A stretch of DNA of 64,000 nt from Myxococcales bacterium (lineage in GTDB: Bacteria > Myxococcota > UBA727 > VGSZ01), in contig JAHFED010000024.1 in assembly GCA_023248635.1 (NCBI GenBank), positions 1-64,000 of the forward strand, read 5' to 3'. Of the stretch, positions 27,051-56,808 are shown one piece after another. Numbering within the stretch: the first letter of the stretch is position 1; each line of letters begins with the position of its first letter. The notes beneath the pieces were generated by a model. That model was not told where the DNA came from. It saw only the letters and a program-made list of their open reading frames with translations, and made no database searches. The position numbers and the translations under genes are program-made.

Positions 27051-29774
27051 ATGAGCGCACGGGTCGTTCTCGTCGACGGATCGGCGCTCATCTACCGCGC
27101 CTTCTTCGCGATCCCGCCGCACCTGACGACGAAGGACGGCCTGCACACCAACGCCACCTTTGGCTTTGCGACCATGTTCAAGAAGCTCTTTGCAGGGAAA
27201 AGACCGGCATTGGGCGCCGTCGTCTTCGATGCTCCTGGTCGCACCTTTCGCGACGAAAAATATCCAGAATATAAAGCCCAGCGGGCCGCGATGCCCGGAG
27301 AGATGAAGGAGCAGCTGACCAACATCGACGCCGTCGTCCAAGCCAATCGCTTCCCCATGTTGCGCATCCCGGGATGGGAGGCCGACGACGTCATCGGCAC
27401 CCTGGCGCGGCAGGCGCGCGAGCTGGGACACGAGGTGGTCATCGTGTCGTCGGACAAGGACTTCGCCCAGCTCCTCGGCGACGGCGTCAGGATGCACGAC
27501 ACATTGAAGGACGTCGTCTACGATCGAGATCTCGTCAAGAAGAAGTGGGGTGTCTGGCCCGAACAAATGGTCGATTATCTCGCGCTCATGGGAGACAGCT
27601 CCGACAACATCCCCGGCGTCGACGGCATCGGCCAGCAGGGTGCGCGGGCTTTGCTCGAGGAGCACGGCTCCCTCGATGCGCTGCTGCTCAAGCTCGAGAC
27701 CGCGCCCGAATCGCTGAAGCCCCGCATCAAGAACGCGTTGTCGGGGGCGGGCAAAGAGAGCGCGCTTCTCTCGAAGACGCTGGCCACCATCGAGCAAAAC
27801 GCTTTGTTGCCCGTCGCCGTCAGCGACCTCGTCATCGAAGACGCCGACCCCCTCGAGCTCAACACCCTCTTCACCCGCCTCGAGTTCTATTCGCTGCTCA
27901 CCAGAGACCAGGCAAAGATAGCCCGCGCCGACGGGCAAGCCGAAGGAGGCGACGTGGTCGTCTGCGGCTCTCCCGATGATGTGCGCGAGCAGATCGCAGC
28001 ACTGCTGGCCCACAGTCCCGAGATCGCAGTCTTTGCCGTCGTCGACGACGGCGGCCACCTGCGGGGATCGTTGACGGGCTTGGCGCTCGCGGTGTCTGAA
28101 GACTCTGGCTGCTACATTCCCTGCGGCCAGGGCAGCGGCGACGACGCCCGGCTACAGGCCTTGGTGTCTTGGCTGCAAGATCCGACCAGGCCCAAGGTCG
28201 TGCACGATCACAAGGCACTCACGGTGCTGCTCTCGCGGGCGGGCATCGCTCTGCGGGGCGTCGGCTTCGATCCCCAGCTCGCGAGCTTTCTGATCAACCC
28301 GACCAAGATCTTGCCTCACGGCCTCGACGCGGTGACCAAGGAATACCTGCACCGCACCCTGCCCGTGCGCAAAGACCTCAGCGGCAGCGGCAAAGACGAA
28401 AAACAACTCAAGGACGTCGCCGCCTCCGTCGAGGGATCCCGCGACGTCGCCCGCTTCGCCGTCGATTGCGCCCAGGCGGTGTGGGCTCTGAGCCCGCTGC
28501 TGCGGACGCTGGTGAAGGAGCGTGATCAAGAGCGCTACCTCTGCGACGTCGACCTGCCCCTGGCCCAGGTGTTGGCGGACATGGAGCAAGCGGGCATCGC
28601 CGTCGACGTCAAAGAGCTGGCCGTCATCGGCACCGAGCTGCGCGCGCGCTTGGCGCTCTCGACCGCGAGCATCCATGCTCACGCGGGACGTGCCTTCAAC
28701 ATCGGTTCTCCCAAGCAGATGGGCGAGGTGTTGTTCGACGAGCTCAAGCTGCCGGTCATCAAGCGCACAAAGACCGGGTACTCCACCGACGCCGACGTGC
28801 TCGAGCGCCTGGCCGCAAAGCACGAGATCTGCCGGGAGATCCTCGAGCACCGCAAGCTCGACAAGCTGATCAACACCTACGTCGACGTGCTCACCAACGA
28901 AGTGCACGCCGACCAGCGCGTGCACTGCACCTTTCAGCAGACGACCGGGGCGACTGGACGGCTCATCACCACCGATCCCGATCTGCAACGAACGCCCGTG
29001 AAAACCGACGAAGGCGTGCGCATCCGCAAGGCCTTCATCGCCACCCGCGACGTCGTCGGCCGTGAGCGCGTGCTGGTCGATGCCGATTGGTCGCAGATCG
29101 AGCTGCGCCTGCTGGCCCATGTCACCGGCGATCCCCTCTTGGTCGAGGCCTACCAAACCCACGAAGACATCCACCGAAAGACGGCGGGCCAGATCTTCAA
29201 CAAGGCACCTTTAGAGGTCAGCAAACAGGAGCGCGACGTCGGAAAAACCATCAACTTTGCCACCATCTACGGTCAAGGCGCCCAAGCCCTGTCGCAGCAG
29301 CTGCACGTCGAGCGCAAAGAGGCCCAGCGCTACATCGATCAATATTTTGAATCCTATAAAGGCGTCGCTGCCTACGTGCACTGGGCCGTCGAAGTCGCCG
29401 AAGAAAAAGGTTATGCAGAGACTTTGCTCGGGCGACGGCGGATCATTCCCGAGCTCAAGAGCAAGAGCCCGATGGACCGTGGCTTTGGCGAGCGCGTCGC
29501 CGTCAACACCCCCATCCAGGGATCAGCGGCCGACGTCTGCAAAGTGGCCATGGTGCGCATCGCGCGGCGCTTGGCTGTCGAAGCACCGCGCGCCCGCTTG
29601 CTCCTGCAGATCCACGACGAGCTGGTGTTCGACGCGCCCGCCGAAGACGCCGACGTCGTCTGCCGCGTCGCCAAAGAGGAGATGGAGCGCTCCGTCGTCG
29701 GCGGCGTGCAGCTGCGGGTGCCCCTGGTGGCCGAGGTCGGCGTCGGCCGATCCTGGGGCGACGCCAAGTCCTGA
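27051..29774 (+). CDS. polA: DNA polymerase I
   Basis: A 907-aa family A polymerase for gap filling and primer removal. The N-terminal 5'-3' nuclease (about 1-290) has VDGSALIYRAFFA, YKAQR, EADDVIGTLA and DSSDNIPGVDGIG. The middle domain (about 300-500) has the 3'-5' exonuclease fold but the metal ligands look lost: FAVVDDGG replaces the DxE motif and HDHKALTVLL replaces the N...KYD motif. The polymerase domain carries motif A VDADWSQIELR (Asp679), motif B KTINFATIYGQGA and motif C QIHDELVFD. Motif B has Ala after NF where E. coli has Gly. ATG at 27051 follows the upstream stop by three bases. Proofreading loss, as in Taq-type enzymes, is inferred. Confidence 0.95.
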   Translation: MSARVVLVDGSALIYRAFFAIPPHLTTKDGLHTNATFGFATMFKKLFAGKRPALGAVVFDAPGRTFRDEKYPEYKAQRAAMPGEMKEQLTNIDAVVQANRFPMLRIPGWEADDVIGTLARQARELGHEVVIVSSDKDFAQLLGDGVRMHDTLKDVVYDRDLVKKKWGVWPEQMVDYLALMGDSSDNIPGVDGIGQQGARALLEEHGSLDALLLKLETAPESLKPRIKNALSGAGKESALLSKTLATIEQNALLPVAVSDLVIEDADPLELNTLFTRLEFYSLLTRDQAKIARADGQAEGGDVVVCGSPDDVREQIAALLAHSPEIAVFAVVDDGGHLRGSLTGLALAVSEDSGCYIPCGQGSGDDARLQALVSWLQDPTRPKVVHDHKALTVLLSRAGIALRGVGFDPQLASFLINPTKILPHGLDAVTKEYLHRTLPVRKDLSGSGKDEKQLKDVAASVEGSRDVARFAVDCAQAVWALSPLLRTLVKERDQERYLCDVDLPLAQVLADMEQAGIAVDVKELAVIGTELRARLALSTASIHAHAGRAFNIGSPKQMGEVLFDELKLPVIKRTKTGYSTDADVLERLAAKHEICREILEHRKLDKLINTYVDVLTNEVHADQRVHCTFQQTTGATGRLITTDPDLQRTPVKTDEGVRIRKAFIATRDVVGRERVLVDADWSQIELRLLAHVTGDPLLVEAYQTHEDIHRKTAGQIFNKAPLEVSKQERDVGKTINFATIYGQGAQALSQQLHVERKEAQRYIDQYFESYKGVAAYVHWAVEVAEEKGYAETLLGRRRIIPELKSKSPMDRGFGERVAVNTPIQGSAADVCKVAMVRIARRLAVEAPRARLLLQIHDELVFDAPAEDADVVCRVAKEEMERSVVGGVQLRVPLVAEVGVGRSWGDAKS

Positions 29775-29792: not shown

Positions 29793-30278
29793 ATGAGCGA
29801 GCACCCTTTCAAGGCGCGCCAGCGTCTTGAACATGAACACTTCACCGCGCGGTTGAGCTGGCAGCGACACACCCCAGACTTCGTCTATGACACCTACAAG
29901 CGCGACCACGACGTCGTCTTCGGCTCCGGCTCCCGCATTTCGGCCTCCGCTGCCCCCGCGTTCAAGGGCGACCCCACCCGCATCAACCCCGAGGAGCAGC
30001 TGGTGGCGGCGTTGTCGTCGTGCCACATGCTCACCTTCCTGGCCATCGCCGCCCGCAAGCGTTTGACCGTCGACGCCTACGACGACGACGCCAGCGGGAT
30101 GCTGGAGAAGAACCAGGCGGGCAAACTGGCGGTGACCAAAGTGACGCTGCGCCCGCGCATCCGATTCGCCGGCACCCCGCCCTCCCCCGCCGACGTCAAG
30201 GCGTTGCACGAGCGCGCGCACGAGGAGTGCTTCATCGCCAACTCGGTGCACACCGTCGTCACCATCCAGCCGCGCTGA
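29793..30278 (+). CDS. OsmC/Ohr-like peroxiredoxin-fold protein
   Basis: A 161-aa OsmC-superfamily protein. INPEEQLVAALSSCHMLTFLAIA (about 69-91) holds the first conserved Cys and the Glu/Arg network. HEECFIANS near residue 146 holds the second Cys. Family members reduce organic hydroperoxides with thiols. Residues 6-13 (FKARQRLE) are encoded by a type C hairpin repeat (29808-29831), directly before the HFTARLSW start of the domain. Read from 29793, the repeat is in frame. The start codon is supported by its position 18 bp after polA, though a start inside or after the repeat cannot be excluded. It is followed by a large type A array. Confidence 0.85.
   Translation: MSEHPFKARQRLEHEHFTARLSWQRHTPDFVYDTYKRDHDVVFGSGSRISASAAPAFKGDPTRINPEEQLVAALSSCHMLTFLAIAARKRLTVDAYDDDASGMLEKNQAGKLAVTKVTLRPRIRFAGTPPSPADVKALHERAHEECFIANSVHTVVTIQPR
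29808..29831 (+). repeat. Type C hairpin inside the OsmC coding region
   Basis: Arm TTCAAGGCGC, loop GCCA, arm GCGTCTTGAA (one G-T pair), followed by CATGAACAC as in the other type C spacers (CATCCAAAC, CATCAACGC). It encodes residues 6-13 of the OsmC protein. Confidence 0.85.
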
Positions 30279-30295: not shown

Positions 30296-30602
30296 TCATC
30301 GCCGCCGGGCGCGGGTGTCGACGATGACGGCGTCGTCGATGAATCTGTAGACAATTCACCGACACACGAAGCGCTGTCGGTCAATTCATCGCCGCCAGGC
30401 GATGAACCTATGGAGAATTCACCGACACGCTTTGCGTGTCGGTGAATTCATCGCCGCCAGGCGATGAACCTGTAGACAAGTCACCGACTCGCGAAGCGCT
30501 GTCGGTGAATTCTCTGCCCTCAGGCCGGGCGGCCAATTCATCGCCGCCAGGCGATGAACCTGTAGACAATTCACCGACACGCGAAGCGCTGTCGGTGAAT
30601 TC
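30296..30602 (+). repeat. Type A array with an inserted type D block
   Basis: About four type A units in the order TTCATCGCC-GCCA-GGCGATGAA, linker CCTGTAGACAA, then TTCACCGACA / TGTCGGTGAA. The first unit is degenerate, one linker reads CCTATGGAG, and a type D block (30507-30539) is inserted between two units at a GAATTC junction. It fills the 30279-30705 gap; no gene is seen in it. Confidence 0.9.
30507..30539 (+). repeat. Type D block within a type A array
   Basis: Core CTGCCCTCAGGCCGGGCGG joined on both sides to type A hairpins through GAATTC and AATTC. Confidence 0.85.
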
Positions 30603-30705
30603 CACCCGCGCGCAGGCCTTCGGCCCCCAAGCTGCATCATCCGGCCTGCGCGCCGATTCGTCGTCGTCACGCAGTGGATGCGTGCACCACGCCCCGATCT
30701 TGGCC

Positions 30706-32032: not shown

Positions 32033-32065
32033 TCAATCCGAGGGGCCAGCGTTGAACATCCAAAC

Positions 32066-32171
32066 TTTGCGCCGTGCAAACGGCGCAAAGCAGGAAGCAC
32101 TTTGCGCCGTGCAAACGGCGCAAAACAGGAAGCACTTTGCGCCGTCCAAACGGCGCAAAACAGGAAGCACT
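32066..32171. repeat. Type B hairpin array, 3 units
   Basis: Three perfect hairpins TTTGCGCCGT / ACGGCGCAAA with loops GCAA, GCAA and CCAA (instead of GCCA) and spacer rCAGGAAGCAC. It is immediately followed by the type C array. Confidence 0.9.
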
Positions 32172-32434
32172 TCAAGACGCGCCAGCGTCTTGAACCGTCA
32201 CAACTTCAAAGCGCGCCAGCGTCTTGAACCGTCACAACTTCAAAGCGCGCCAGCGTCTTGAACCGTCACAACTTAAAAGCCGTCAGACCTTCAAGACGCG
32301 CCAGCGTCTTGAACCGTCACAACTTCAAGACGCGCCAGCGTCTTGAACATCCAAACTTCAAGACGCGCCAGCGTCTTGAACATCCAAACTTCAAGACGCG
32401 CCAGCGTCTTGAACATCCAAACTTCAAAGCGACG
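32171..32434. repeat. Type C hairpin array, 7 units
   Basis: Seven hairpins with arms TTCAAGACGC or TTCAAAGCGC and GCGTCTTGAA, loop GCCA. Spacers are CCGTCACAAC in the first part and CATCCAAAC in the last part; two partial units are present (near 32273 and 32423). The array ends at the stop codon of the minus-strand kinase. Types B and C together fill the 32033-32435 gap. Confidence 0.9.
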
Positions 32435-35284: not shown

Positions 35285-35326
35285 TTCCTCGTCCCGTTGG
35301 CGGTGCCAAGCTGCATCCTCCCGCCA

Positions 35327-35386
35327 CGCCGCCAGGCGATGAACCTGTAGACAGTTCACCGACACGCGAAGCGCTGTCGGTGAATT
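35327..35386 (+). repeat. Type A two-hairpin repeat
   Basis: Order hairpin (GCCAGGCGATGAA arm; left arm partly lost), linker CCTGTAGACAG, then TTCACCGACA / TGTCGGTGAA. Directly joined to a type B array. Confidence 0.85.
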
Positions 35387-35590
35387 TGAGCCGTGCCAAC
35401 GGCTCAAACCATCGGCACTTTGAGCCGTGCCAACGGCTCAAACCATCGGCACTTTGAGCCGTGCCAACGGCTCAAACCATCGGCACTTTGAGCCGTGCCA
35501 ACGGCTCAAACCATCGGCACTTTGCGCCGTGCCAACGGCGCAAAGCAGGAAGCACTTTGAGCCGTGCCAACGGCTCAAAGCAGGAAGCAC
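35387..35590. repeat. Type B hairpin array, 6 units, two stem versions
   Basis: Four units TTTGAGCCGT / ACGGCTCAAA with spacer CCATCGGCAC, one unit TTTGCGCCGT / ACGGCGCAAA and one TTTGAGCCGT / ACGGCTCAAA with spacer GCAGGAAGCAC. All have loop GCCA and perfect stems. The A/C change in the left arm is matched by a T/G change in the right arm. Confidence 0.9.
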
Positions 35591-35657
35591 TTCATCGCCG
35601 CCAGGCGATGAACCTGTAGACAATTCACCGACACGCGAAGCGCTGTCGGTGAATTCT
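35591..35657 (+). repeat. Type A two-hairpin repeat
   Basis: Complete unit: TTCATCGCC-GCCA-GGCGATGAA, linker CCTGTAGACAA, TTCACCGACA / TGTCGGTGAA, ending GAATTC. It follows the type B array. The rest of 35285-35787 shows no gene. Confidence 0.9.
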
Positions 35658-35787
35658 TCAAGACGCTCGCGCGGGTTGCAGGTTCGCGAGGATGACGATC
35701 GCCGGGGCGTCGCTGGGCCTCAGCGCTGACCGAGTGCATGACGCACTCGTGCTGACCGAGGGCCTTGGGCACTCGCGGCCTCATCGA

Positions 35788-38847: not shown

Positions 38848-39072
38848 GAATTCACCGACAGCGCTTCGCGTGTCGGTGAATCGTCTACAGGTTCATCGCC
38901 TGGCGGCGATGAATTCACCGACAGCGCTGCGCGTGTCGGTGAATCGTCTACAGGTTCATCGCCTGGCGGCGATGAATTCACCGACAGCGCTTCGCGTGTC
39001 GGTGAATTGTCTACAGGTTCATCGCCTGGCGGCGATGAATTGTCTACAGCTTCATCGCCTAGCGGCGATGAA
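38848..39072 (-). repeat. Type A array, about 3.5 units, reversed orientation
   Basis: Units read on the + strand as TTCACCGACA / TGTCGGTGAA, linker TCGTCTACAGG, then TTCATCGCC-TGGC-GGCGATGAA with GAATTC between units. The inner loops alternate AGCGCTTCGCG and AGCGCTGCGCG. The last half-unit carries TAGC in place of TGGC. The array stops five bases before the ribosome binding site of the C45 peptidase gene. Confidence 0.9.
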
Positions 39073-39088
39073 ATGCTAAGGAGCCCTC

Positions 39089-44033: not shown

Positions 44034-45068
44034 ATGCGCTTTCACTTCGCCGGGCTCGTTCTCATCGTCCTGGGTGCAGCCGCTGTGGGATGCGGGCGTC
44101 CGGTGGTCGAGCCTGAGCCCCTCCCCGACGGCGACCTCGATGTTCCCGGCATCCTCGGGGGCCGTTGCGCCTCGGGCGGCTTTTGCAACGACGGCCTGCT
44201 GTGCAACGACGCCAACGTTTGCATCGACGACCCCGCCGAGGGCGAAGGTGAAGGCGGCGAAGGCGAGGGCGAGGGCGAAGCTGCGTGTGACGTCGACGCC
44301 GACGAAGACGGCTCCTGCGCCGGCACCGACTGCGACGACAACGACCGCTTGCGCTTCCCGGGCAATGTCGAGCGCTGCGACTTCGTCGATGGCAACTGCG
44401 ACGGTCGCAGGAACGACTCCCTCGACTGCACCTTCCTCGCTCACGATCGCGACACCATCTTTCGCATCGATCCCTTCGCCGAGACCCTCACCGAGCTCTT
44501 GAGCGTCACCCTCATCGACGGTGCGGGACTGCTGGACATCGACAGCGACGTCGACGGCGACCTCGTGGCTGTCACCAGCGCTGGCCTCTTCGCCATCGAG
44601 GACAGCGGCACCTTGACCCCCATCGTCGACGCCCCGGCTCCAGCGGGCACCAACGGCATGGCCATCACCGGCGACGGCACCATGTTCCTCACCAACGACG
44701 ACGGCGCCGACAGCGCGGCCTTCAAGGTGGTCAACAACCAACCGGTCGAGGTCGGAGGCTTCTCCGACGGCTTCGTGTCCTCCGGCGACTGCGTGGTGAC
44801 CAAAGAAGAAGACCTGCTCATGAGCGCCAAGCTGCCCGGCGGCGCCGGCGGCGACGACATCCTGGTGCAGATCGACTCCGAAAACGGCGGCACCACGGAC
44901 ATTGGTTCCATCGGCTTTCCCAAGGTCTTCGGCCTCTCGGCGAGCTTTGGCTTTCTCTTTGGCGTGACCGAGGGGGGCGAGGTCCTGCAGATCGACAGAG
45001 ACACCGGCGCCGGCACCCTGCTCTTTGACACCGCCGAGCGCTTCAACGGCGCCGCCAACGGCGATTGA
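44034..45068 (+). CDS. Lipoprotein with GE linker and MopE-type metal-binding motif
   Basis: A 344-aa lipoprotein. Signal with lipobox VGCG; Cys-rich segment (GRCASGGFCNDGLLCNDANV), then a GEGEGE linker (about residues 75-92). Next is a MopE-like motif with CDDND, FPGNVERCD and GNCDG (about 98-124), a pattern linked to calcium or copper binding. The rest is a beta-rich region like a beta-propeller readout (DTIFRIDPFAETLTELL, IGFPKVFGLSASFG, VLQIDRDTGAG). ATG at 44034 begins the signal peptide. Divergent from the VWA gene by 230 bp. Followed after 31 bp by another lipoprotein gene. Confidence 0.8.
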   Translation: MRFHFAGLVLIVLGAAAVGCGRPVVEPEPLPDGDLDVPGILGGRCASGGFCNDGLLCNDANVCIDDPAEGEGEGGEGEGEGEAACDVDADEDGSCAGTDCDDNDRLRFPGNVERCDFVDGNCDGRRNDSLDCTFLAHDRDTIFRIDPFAETLTELLSVTLIDGAGLLDIDSDVDGDLVAVTSAGLFAIEDSGTLTPIVDAPAPAGTNGMAITGDGTMFLTNDDGADSAAFKVVNNQPVEVGGFSDGFVSSGDCVVTKEEDLLMSAKLPGGAGGDDILVQIDSENGGTTDIGSIGFPKVFGLSASFGFLFGVTEGGEVLQIDRDTGAGTLLFDTAERFNGAANGD

Positions 45069-50067: not shown

Positions 50068-50143
50068 AGGTCCTTAGCTCAGTTGGTAGAGCACCGGTCT
50101 CCAAAACCGGGGGTCGAAGGTTCGAGCCCTTCAGGGCCTGCCA
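50068..50143 (+). tRNA. trnW: tRNA-Trp (anticodon CCA)
   Basis: 76-nt cloverleaf. Acceptor stem AGGTCCT / AGGGCCT (one G-T pair), D arm with AGTTGGTAGA, anticodon stem CCGGT / ACCGG with loop CTCCAAA (anticodon at 50101-50103), T arm with GGTTCGAGCC, discriminator G and an encoded CCA (50141-50143). It lies just upstream of secE, the usual location of tRNA-Trp in many bacteria. Confidence 0.95.
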
Positions 50144-50276
50144 GTTTTGCGCCGTAAAGACGGCGCAAACATCGGCACTTTGCGCCGTAACAACGGCGCA
50201 AACATCGGCACTTTGCGCCGTAACAACGGCGCAAAGCAGGAAGCACTTTCGCCGTGCCAACGGCGAACTTCCCCCG
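50144..50276. repeat. Type B hairpin array, 4 units, between tRNA-Trp and secE
   Basis: Hairpins TTTGCGCCGT / ACGGCGCAAA with loops AAAG, AACA and AACA, spacers ACATCGGCAC and GCAGGAAGCAC, then a shortened unit TTCGCCGT-GCCA-ACGGCGAA. It starts one base after the tRNA CCA. Stems are unchanged while loops vary. Confidence 0.9.
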
Positions 50277-50817: not shown

Positions 50818-50841
50818 TTCAAGACGCGCCAGCGTCTTGAA
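50818..50841 (+). repeat. Type C hairpin in the nusG leader
   Basis: Perfect stem TTCAAGACGC / GCGTCTTGAA with loop GCCA, 21 bp before the nusG start. The spacer that follows is CATCAACGC. Confidence 0.9.
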
Positions 50842-52094: not shown

Positions 52095-52116
52095 CTCAAG
52101 ACGCGCGTGCGTCTTG
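52095..52116 (+). repeat. Type C-like hairpin between rplK and rplA
   Basis: Perfect 9-bp stem TCAAGACGC / GCGTCTTGA with loop GCGT instead of GCCA, followed by ACACC. It lies in the 79-bp gap before rplA. Confidence 0.8.
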
Positions 52117-52141
52117 AACACCCTCTTTAAGGATATTGCAA

Positions 52142-55974: not shown

Positions 55975-56808
55975 ATGAACCTCCGCGCTCTGCTTGCTGC
56001 CGCTGTCTTCTTGCCCGCTGGGGCCTCCTTCGCCCAGACCACCTGCGTCGTCGAAGGCTTCGATCGCACCTGCGAAGGCACCACGCTGACCTTCTGCGAT
56101 GCCACCGACGATGCGGGCGCTGCACAGCCGCCGGTCACGAACACCTTTGATTGCTCGACCAACGGCACCGGCGTCGGCTGCGGCGACCAAAATTGCACGG
56201 GAGACGGGTGTGGCGACCTCTCGACCTGCGTGGGCACCGGTGAGGCCTCGAGCTGCATCGGTGAGTCGGTCTTTTACGACGCCGACACCGAAAACGACCA
56301 GCTCTTCTTGGCCATCACCTGCGCCGCCGGCTTCGCTTGCAAAACCGTCGTGACGGGCGACGGCACCGCCCTCGAGGATTCCTGCACGGCCAACACCGAG
56401 GTCTGCACCGGTGCCTCGGCGCGCTGCGACGGCCAGGTCGGCGTCACCTGCTACGCCGGCGGCGAAGCCGCCACTGCGTTCCTGCTGAACTCCCCCACCC
56501 TGCAGGACTGCTCGACCTTCCCCGCCGGCAGCACCTGCGCCGTCAACGAGGACACCCCTGGCAGCCCCTTCGCTTTCTGCGACGTCCCCGCCCCGGCCGA
56601 AGGTGAAGGCGAGGGCGAAGGCGCCGAAGGCGAAGGCGAAGCCGCCGAAGGCGAAGGCGAAGACGGCGACGGCAACAACCGCGACGACGAACCCGCTGAG
56701 CCCGCACCGAGCAATGGGCTGGCGGGTTGCCTCAACGCCTCTGGCACCTTGCCCGTCTTTGGGCCCTTGGCCCTGGTTCTGGTCGCCCTGCGCCGTCGCC
56801 GACGCTGA
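55975..56808 (+). CDS. Cys-rich secreted protein with GE linker and MYXO-CTERM-like tail
   Basis: A 277-aa exported protein. Signal peptide MNLRALLAAAVFLPAGASFAQ, then about 16 cysteines in a repeated pattern (TFCDATDD, GVGCGDQNC, STCVGTG, AVCYAGG-like VTCYAGG). A GE/AE linker follows (about 205-225), and the C-terminus is GCLNASGTLPVFGPLALV with ALRRRRR. A Cys, a hydrophobic stretch and an Arg cluster resemble the MYXO-CTERM sorting tail of myxobacterial surface proteins. ATG at 55975 is preferred over TTG 55963. A good terminator follows at 56851. Confidence 0.8.
   Translation: MNLRALLAAAVFLPAGASFAQTTCVVEGFDRTCEGTTLTFCDATDDAGAAQPPVTNTFDCSTNGTGVGCGDQNCTGDGCGDLSTCVGTGEASSCIGESVFYDADTENDQLFLAITCAAGFACKTVVTGDGTALEDSCTANTEVCTGASARCDGQVGVTCYAGGEAATAFLLNSPTLQDCSTFPAGSTCAVNEDTPGSPFAFCDVPAPAEGEGEGEGAEGEGEAAEGEGEDGDGNNRDDEPAEPAPSNGLAGCLNASGTLPVFGPLALVLVALRRRRR

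Follow-up and report, generated by a model that had tools for sequence, protein, structure and literature searches.

A hairpin at the start of an OsmC-family gene

The window, by which we mean the whole stretch of 64,000 nucleotides analysed, carries on its forward strand a gene of the OsmC family with an insert (29793-30278), which encodes 161 amino acids, matches PF02566 over residues 59-159 (1e-16), was aligned with 23 homologues and has a relative of solved structure in 2d7v (5e-35). The ORF upstream of it, which ends at 29774 and is 907 amino acids long, is presumably that of DNA polymerase I. Fifteen nucleotides after the start codon of the OsmC gene, and in frame with the ATG at 29793, lies an inverted repeat of 10 + 4 + 10 nt, TTCAAGGCGC-GCCA-GCGTCTTGAA (29808-29831, forward strand), the arms of which are 90% complementary; the left arm occupies 29808-29817, the loop 29818-29821 and the right arm 29822-29831. 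We call this hairpin type C. The initial annotation had read it as codons 6-13 of the OsmC protein, giving FKARQRLE followed by HEHF, and both the sequence and the reading frame confirm this. It had also placed the hairpin just before the conserved domain; that does not hold for the Pfam domain, which starts at residue 59, but it does hold for the similarity shared by the whole family (A-x-[ILV]-x-W), which begins at about residue 19, directly past the insert.

The OsmC copy is a complete unit of the 33-nt kind: the hairpin is followed on the same strand by a 9-nt spacer, CATGAACAC (29832-29840), delimited by boundary profile and sequence, and by a second TTC (29841-29843) that is a direct repeat of 29808-29810 and where the homologue of a same-genus genome has one TTC.

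Structure of the unit and its arrays

When hairpins at the edges of clusters were aligned, no conserved base was found 5' of the TTC; 3' of the type C hairpin came a spacer of 9 nt (consensus CATCMAAAC) or 10 nt (CCATCAGAAC-like), then TTCAA(g), with nothing conserved beyond. Clustered units recur every 33 nt in 47 cases and every 34 nt in 40, and 91 of the 95 neighbouring units have the same orientation, that is head-to-tail. This boundary profile and the 33/34 period together define the unit as hairpin plus spacer flanked by a direct repeat of TTC. Beyond the first reading, then, the unit is the hairpin with its 9-nt spacer (33 nt) and not the 24-nt hairpin alone, and most copies stand in tandem intergenic arrays, with at least four stem types having one loop; about 90% of the copies are intergenic.

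As an example, seven type C hairpins form an intergenic head-to-tail array at 32171-32413, directly preceded by three type A hairpins (TTTGCGCCGT loop ACGGCGCAAA; 32065-32159), and an isolated intergenic type C hairpin at 50818-50841 is followed by CATCAACGC and TTC, all on the forward strand. Window copies whose spacer starts with CAT (32324, 32357, 32390 and 50818) read FKTRQRLEH in the same frame, as had been noted earlier for intergenic copies, and those whose spacer starts with CCG read FKTRQRLEP. The forward strand further carries a diverged type C hairpin with loop GCGT and 4 mismatches (52095-52118), a type A/B hairpin array (2045-2485), type A-like hairpins (50146-50265) just past a tRNA gene (50068-50140), a mixed array of D/D2 compound units and type A/B hairpins (35319-35663) and, immediately 3' of the OsmC gene, a D and D2 array (30382-30609); a second array of this kind lies on the reverse strand at 38848-39074. 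Both D/D2 arrays have a period of 62-63 nt and a linker containing GTAG, and one strand gives a 21-residue peptide repeat. Along the mixed stretches 32065-32413 and 35319-35663 the hairpin types succeed one another with similar spacers, as if inserting side by side.

Copy number and distribution of the hairpins

Allowing at most 3 mismatches, we found 250 forward and 220 reverse matches to type C in the organism's own genome (6.53 Mb, 135 contigs) and 0 for a reversed-pattern control. The hairpin is therefore not a chance feature, given some 470 matches against none for the control and a z of -4.5 for RNA folding of the 24-mer. Types A/B gave 185 + 143 matches in the own genome. The type C consensus, at the same threshold, was absent from 57 other related genomes, including two from the same genus, and types A/B were found in none of 145 other genomes of the phylum, so we rejected the idea that relatives carry the same repeat; a search for any short hairpin family in three relatives covered only 37, 140 and 140 kb. 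The exact 24-mer was not found in a collection of named genomes, from which the own genome had possibly been left out. A phage origin was likewise rejected, as types C and A/B had 0 exact matches in viral contigs.

In 1.168 Mb of the own genome, hairpins with a minimum arm length of 8 nt were counted separately for all 256 loops of 4 nt. The loop GCCA accounted for 215 hairpins, the next loop, GCAA, for 9, and the median was 0; the 215 counted for TGGC are the same hairpins read on the other strand. Four main stems have the GCCA loop in common (C 116, D 43, A 35 and B 17); a single base pair separates A from B, the others are unrelated, and the hairpins fold with z from -4.5 to -6.4. The retention of one loop with unrelated stems suggests that the loop and the shape are recognised. 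Upkeep of the stem within type C is weak, judging from the few paired changes in the arms (11, versus 127 one-sided breaks; 44 G-U).

The OsmC segment as a translated insertion

The insert is absent from all of the 23 aligned OsmC homologues, and the homologue from a same-genus genome, 60% identical, has exactly 11 residues fewer at this place. Once 33 nt are removed, the start of the window OsmC becomes MSEHPFTARLSWQR, colinear with MSAETFTATVLWQR of this homologue, the F-T codons of which (TTC ACC) are identical to those of the window.

That OsmC translation starts past the repeat, which would then be leader only, had been named beforehand as the finding that would count against a coding hairpin, and we find it scarcely credible. 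There is no obvious Shine-Dalgarno sequence 5' of the ATG at 29793, and artefacts of this kind do exist, as with the seven units in a likely false N-terminal extension described below. Against it, the ATG followed by SEH (MSEH) also begins OsmC homologues of other lineages, which lack the repeat, and this places the start 5' of the repeat. The first in-frame start codon past the repeat is a TTG at residue 21, and a start there would cut the first strand (residues 19-22) two residues before W23, which is invariant in the alignment. Judged by this conservation of the start, the repeat is translated and is not a leader. According to the structure model of the protein (mean pLDDT 88.5, residues 1-9 below 50), which starts its first strand at residue 19, the insert is an appendage ahead of the fold. 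The 11 residues that it adds after MSEH and ahead of that strand are probably neutral to OsmC function.

Units inside other genes

The cleanest before/after case that we saw is the helicase HrpB (L286:7605-10211, contig C87 of the own genome), which carries a perfect type B unit, with a stem different from that of type C and the same GCCA loop. The closest solved relative of this protein is 6eud (2.6e-132), and the unit falls between the aligned stretches 7-471 and 545-863. Compared with five relatives, of which two (71% and 68% identical) belong to the same genus, the unit adds exactly 11 codons, TLSRANGSNIG; the homologue in the genome G002 has one TTG, and the own genome has TTG at both unit ends. 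In AroA (EPSP synthase, L103:3079-4446, contig C11) an in-frame D2+D compound segment, FTDSASRVGELSTGSSPGGDEF, has no counterpart in any of the 18 homologues compared; another additional stretch, AGLTQGPHVYALGLW, was seen further along the same protein.

Type C units also lie in variable loops or linkers of a DUF2520 protein and a protein kinase, where the insert length is inexact and the pattern is compatible with insertion. QueC contains an antisense type B unit in a variable region, where 2 of 14 homologues have an insert of their own. Other in-frame units occur in a transglycosylase (type D, L277), two membrane proteins and TPR, MAPEG and FolB proteins. Within the window, the reading frame of a ThiF-domain gene (157-1221) continues through D2 and D hairpins close to its C-terminus, at 1096-1158 on the reverse strand, with the peptide FTESASRVGELSTGSSPGGGEF. 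Exact insert lengths come from OsmC and HrpB only.

Reading frame and spacer of the genic copies

Using a threshold of at most 5 mismatches, 222 type C copies were collected from 1.817 Mb, of which 89.4% is coding according to a simple purpose-made gene caller; 22 copies lay in called genes and 200 outside. Inspection of the translations led us to set aside 13 of the 22, either as likely false N-terminal extensions or weak ORFs (C9 176442, C9 326756, C6 11768, C11 72929 and seven of L268) or as lying at ORF ends (L071 9884 and L279 1440). Eleven of these 13 are in frame 0, those of L071 and L279 being in frame 2; the spacer is 10 nt long in C9 326756 and unclassified in C9 176442 and C11 72929. 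The nine copies kept belong to eight genes, namely OsmC, DUF2520, the kinase (L262), two membrane protein genes (L259, and L089 with two units), TPR (L090, 5 mismatches), MAPEG and FolB; the comparison with homologues covers three of them, OsmC, DUF2520 and the kinase. All nine are in frame 0 and have a 9-nt spacer, small as these numbers are. The 9-nt spacer makes the unit length a multiple of three, and it is also found in 103 of the 165 classified copies outside genes. Frame 1 of type C is open as well, a stop occurring in frame 2 only, and the frame rule fails for type B, which is in frame 2 in HrpB and in frame 0 in QueC.

The 1.817 Mb sample included stretches chosen around exact matches listed in the genome-wide type C search (L070-L092) and long stretches on contigs that likewise have listed matches (400,000 of the 400,030 nt of C9, the initial 100 kb each of C4, C6 and C11, the whole of C36 and the initial 20 kb of C2). 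Its unselected part, L259-L298 (0.65 Mb, the first 20 kb or less of contigs C60-C99), held 43 copies, 10 of them in called genes, including seven in L268. These last (L268:11605-11826) are seven type C units that repeat every 33 nt immediately before a redoxin-domain gene, with an open frame into that gene. As relatives align only past the units, they are probably an intergenic array, and we dropped them as an in-gene array, the redoxin-domain ORF likely having a false N-terminal extension.

Origin of the repeat

We consider it probable that the hairpin is part of a mobile, non-autonomous, selfish repeat of 33 nt, sometimes 34 nt, whose in-frame insertions survive. This reading draws on the copy number, the sharp ends, the restriction to one genome of those searched and the scattered insertions, and past mobility is suggested by comparison between genomes: same-genus genomes lack the repeat, and their OsmC and HrpB genes are without exactly 33 nt at the corresponding position. 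The unit would consist of a 24-nt hairpin with a GCCA loop and TT...AA ends, a spacer of 9-10 nt and a repeat of the starting TTC or TTG. Copying, perhaps of a single strand that folds into the hairpin, would be followed by joining at a TTC/TTG target; insertions in genes would survive only in the 33-nt form, in a stop-free frame and at a tolerant place such as termini, loops and linkers.

Spread without any transposase, by replication slippage or template switching at TTC/TTG microhomologies assisted by the hairpin, with arrays arising by unequal exchange, would account for the TTC/TTG direct repeats at both unit ends and for tandem arrays of exact period, and no Y1 transposase (PF01797) was found. 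Such a process would not readily give rise to so many scattered sites (100 clusters in 1.82 Mb), however, and leaves one loop on unrelated stems unexplained, so that we regard it as unlikely. A classical REP/REPIN element, moved by a RAYT (Y1 transposase) recognising the hairpin along with a tag, GTAG or CGTC, is more doubtful still. The REPs described in excerpts of PMC3733652 do match in size and copy number, in their preference for intergenic positions and in the occasional copy inside a gene, and GTAG is present in the D-D2 linker CCTGTAGACAA; but PF01797 had 0 matches in the own genome (96.7% complete), the control search being positive in 5 of 14 genomes, E. coli among them. Moreover, the flanks of the type C hairpin show neither GTAG nor CGTC as a conserved unpaired tag, CGTC occurring only inside the stem, and neighbours are head-to-tail instead of in opposite orientation. 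On orientation, the missing PF01797 and the missing tag, membership of the REP/RAYT group was rejected.

Very little weight goes to a function of the hairpins at the RNA or DNA level, as terminators, in mRNA stability or in protein binding, with the OsmC copy regulating its gene, even if the strength of the hairpins and the position of that copy so close to the start codon would suit such a role. Clusters lie on the same strand as the flanking gene in 21 cases and on the opposite strand in 26, their gaps are tandem, divergent and convergent in 47, 18 and 17 cases, an ordinary mix compared with 407, 194 and 102 for all gaps, and the absence of any transcribed-strand preference together with this mix argues against a terminator or mRNA role. 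An Rfam scan of the window found no family except one tRNA, and the copies within enzymes lack a common theme. A regulatory RNA role for most copies was consequently rejected.

Returning to the selfish mobile repeat, it is possible, if on balance doubtful, that the moving unit is set by its shape and loop (TT, stem, GCCA, stem, AA and a spacer of about 10 nt) and not by the stem sequence, so that types A, B, C and D would be served by one machinery other than Y1, with steps of 33 nt able to add 11 codons.

Comparison with known palindromic repeats

The initial annotation had likened the OsmC hairpin to the in-frame palindromic elements (RPE) of Rickettsia. A repeated palindrome translated in frame is indeed supported by homologues of OsmC, HrpB and AroA; the likeness is one of behaviour, and RPE membership is not established. 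Excerpts of PMC2229807 and PMC10969869 describe RPE and the coding palindromes of Wolbachia as repeated palindromes without genes of their own, both intergenic and in frame in conserved genes, and by analogy they are the nearest known kind. RPE are 105-146 bp long (excerpts of PMC2229807), whereas the units here are 33-34 nt with one hairpin (10-bp stem) and a spacer, stand mostly in head-to-tail arrays and have a TTC/TTG direct repeat and a common GCCA loop. RPE, compared here by description, are also reported to end in CGTC (excerpts of PMC3733652); in the present repeat no unpaired CGTC lies at the unit ends, and CGTC occurs only in the type C stem.

REPs, according to excerpts of PMC3733652, are palindromes of 20-40 bp, present in high copy number, mainly intergenic and sometimes intragenic, with GTAG or CGTC tags, many having RAYT genes. 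The present repeats resemble REPs and REPINs as short, abundant, mainly intergenic palindromes sometimes found inside genes; they differ in the tag, the transposase and the orientation of neighbours, which in many REP families are opposite and here are the same in all but four of 95 pairs. ERIC and the 107-bp Correia/NEMIS MITEs, both non-autonomous, have been found fused in frame with host ORFs (excerpts of PMC2229807), but these elements measure about 107-127 bp and have terminal inverted repeats and 5'TA3' ends, in contrast to a short hairpin with TTC/TTG repeats. We found no description of a GCCA hairpin repeat in the open-licence literature on repeats of Bradymonadales, Myxococcota and Deltaproteobacteria or on REP/RAYT, and the available excerpts of PMC12306157 make no mention of Myxococcota.

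It is chiefly from Rickettsia and Wolbachia that coding palindromes are known, and here a large-genome bacterium, probably of the Myxococcota, displays them too. At 33 nt the unit is so short that conserved proteins such as HrpB can be compared exactly in the two states, bearing it or lacking it, and very short selfish DNA can in this way add peptide segments to proteins. A GCCA loop kept across unrelated stems offers a testable handle on the mover of REP-like hairpins where no RAYT is found. By description, and not by sequence, the units may also be set beside the small dispersed repeats (SDR) of cyanobacteria, very short and dispersed like them, which Elhai et al. 2008 are said to have described as mobile and 21-27 nt long.

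Besides the GCCA hairpins, coding repeat runs of the GEGEGE type, with a period of 6 to 12 nt, lie in the window at 2650-2860, 44225-44302 and 56583-56690, and another hairpin family, which has a loop of 3 nt instead of GCCA (GGAGGGTCTG...CAGACCCTCC and variants), was seen in L050-L069 on contig C9 of the own genome.
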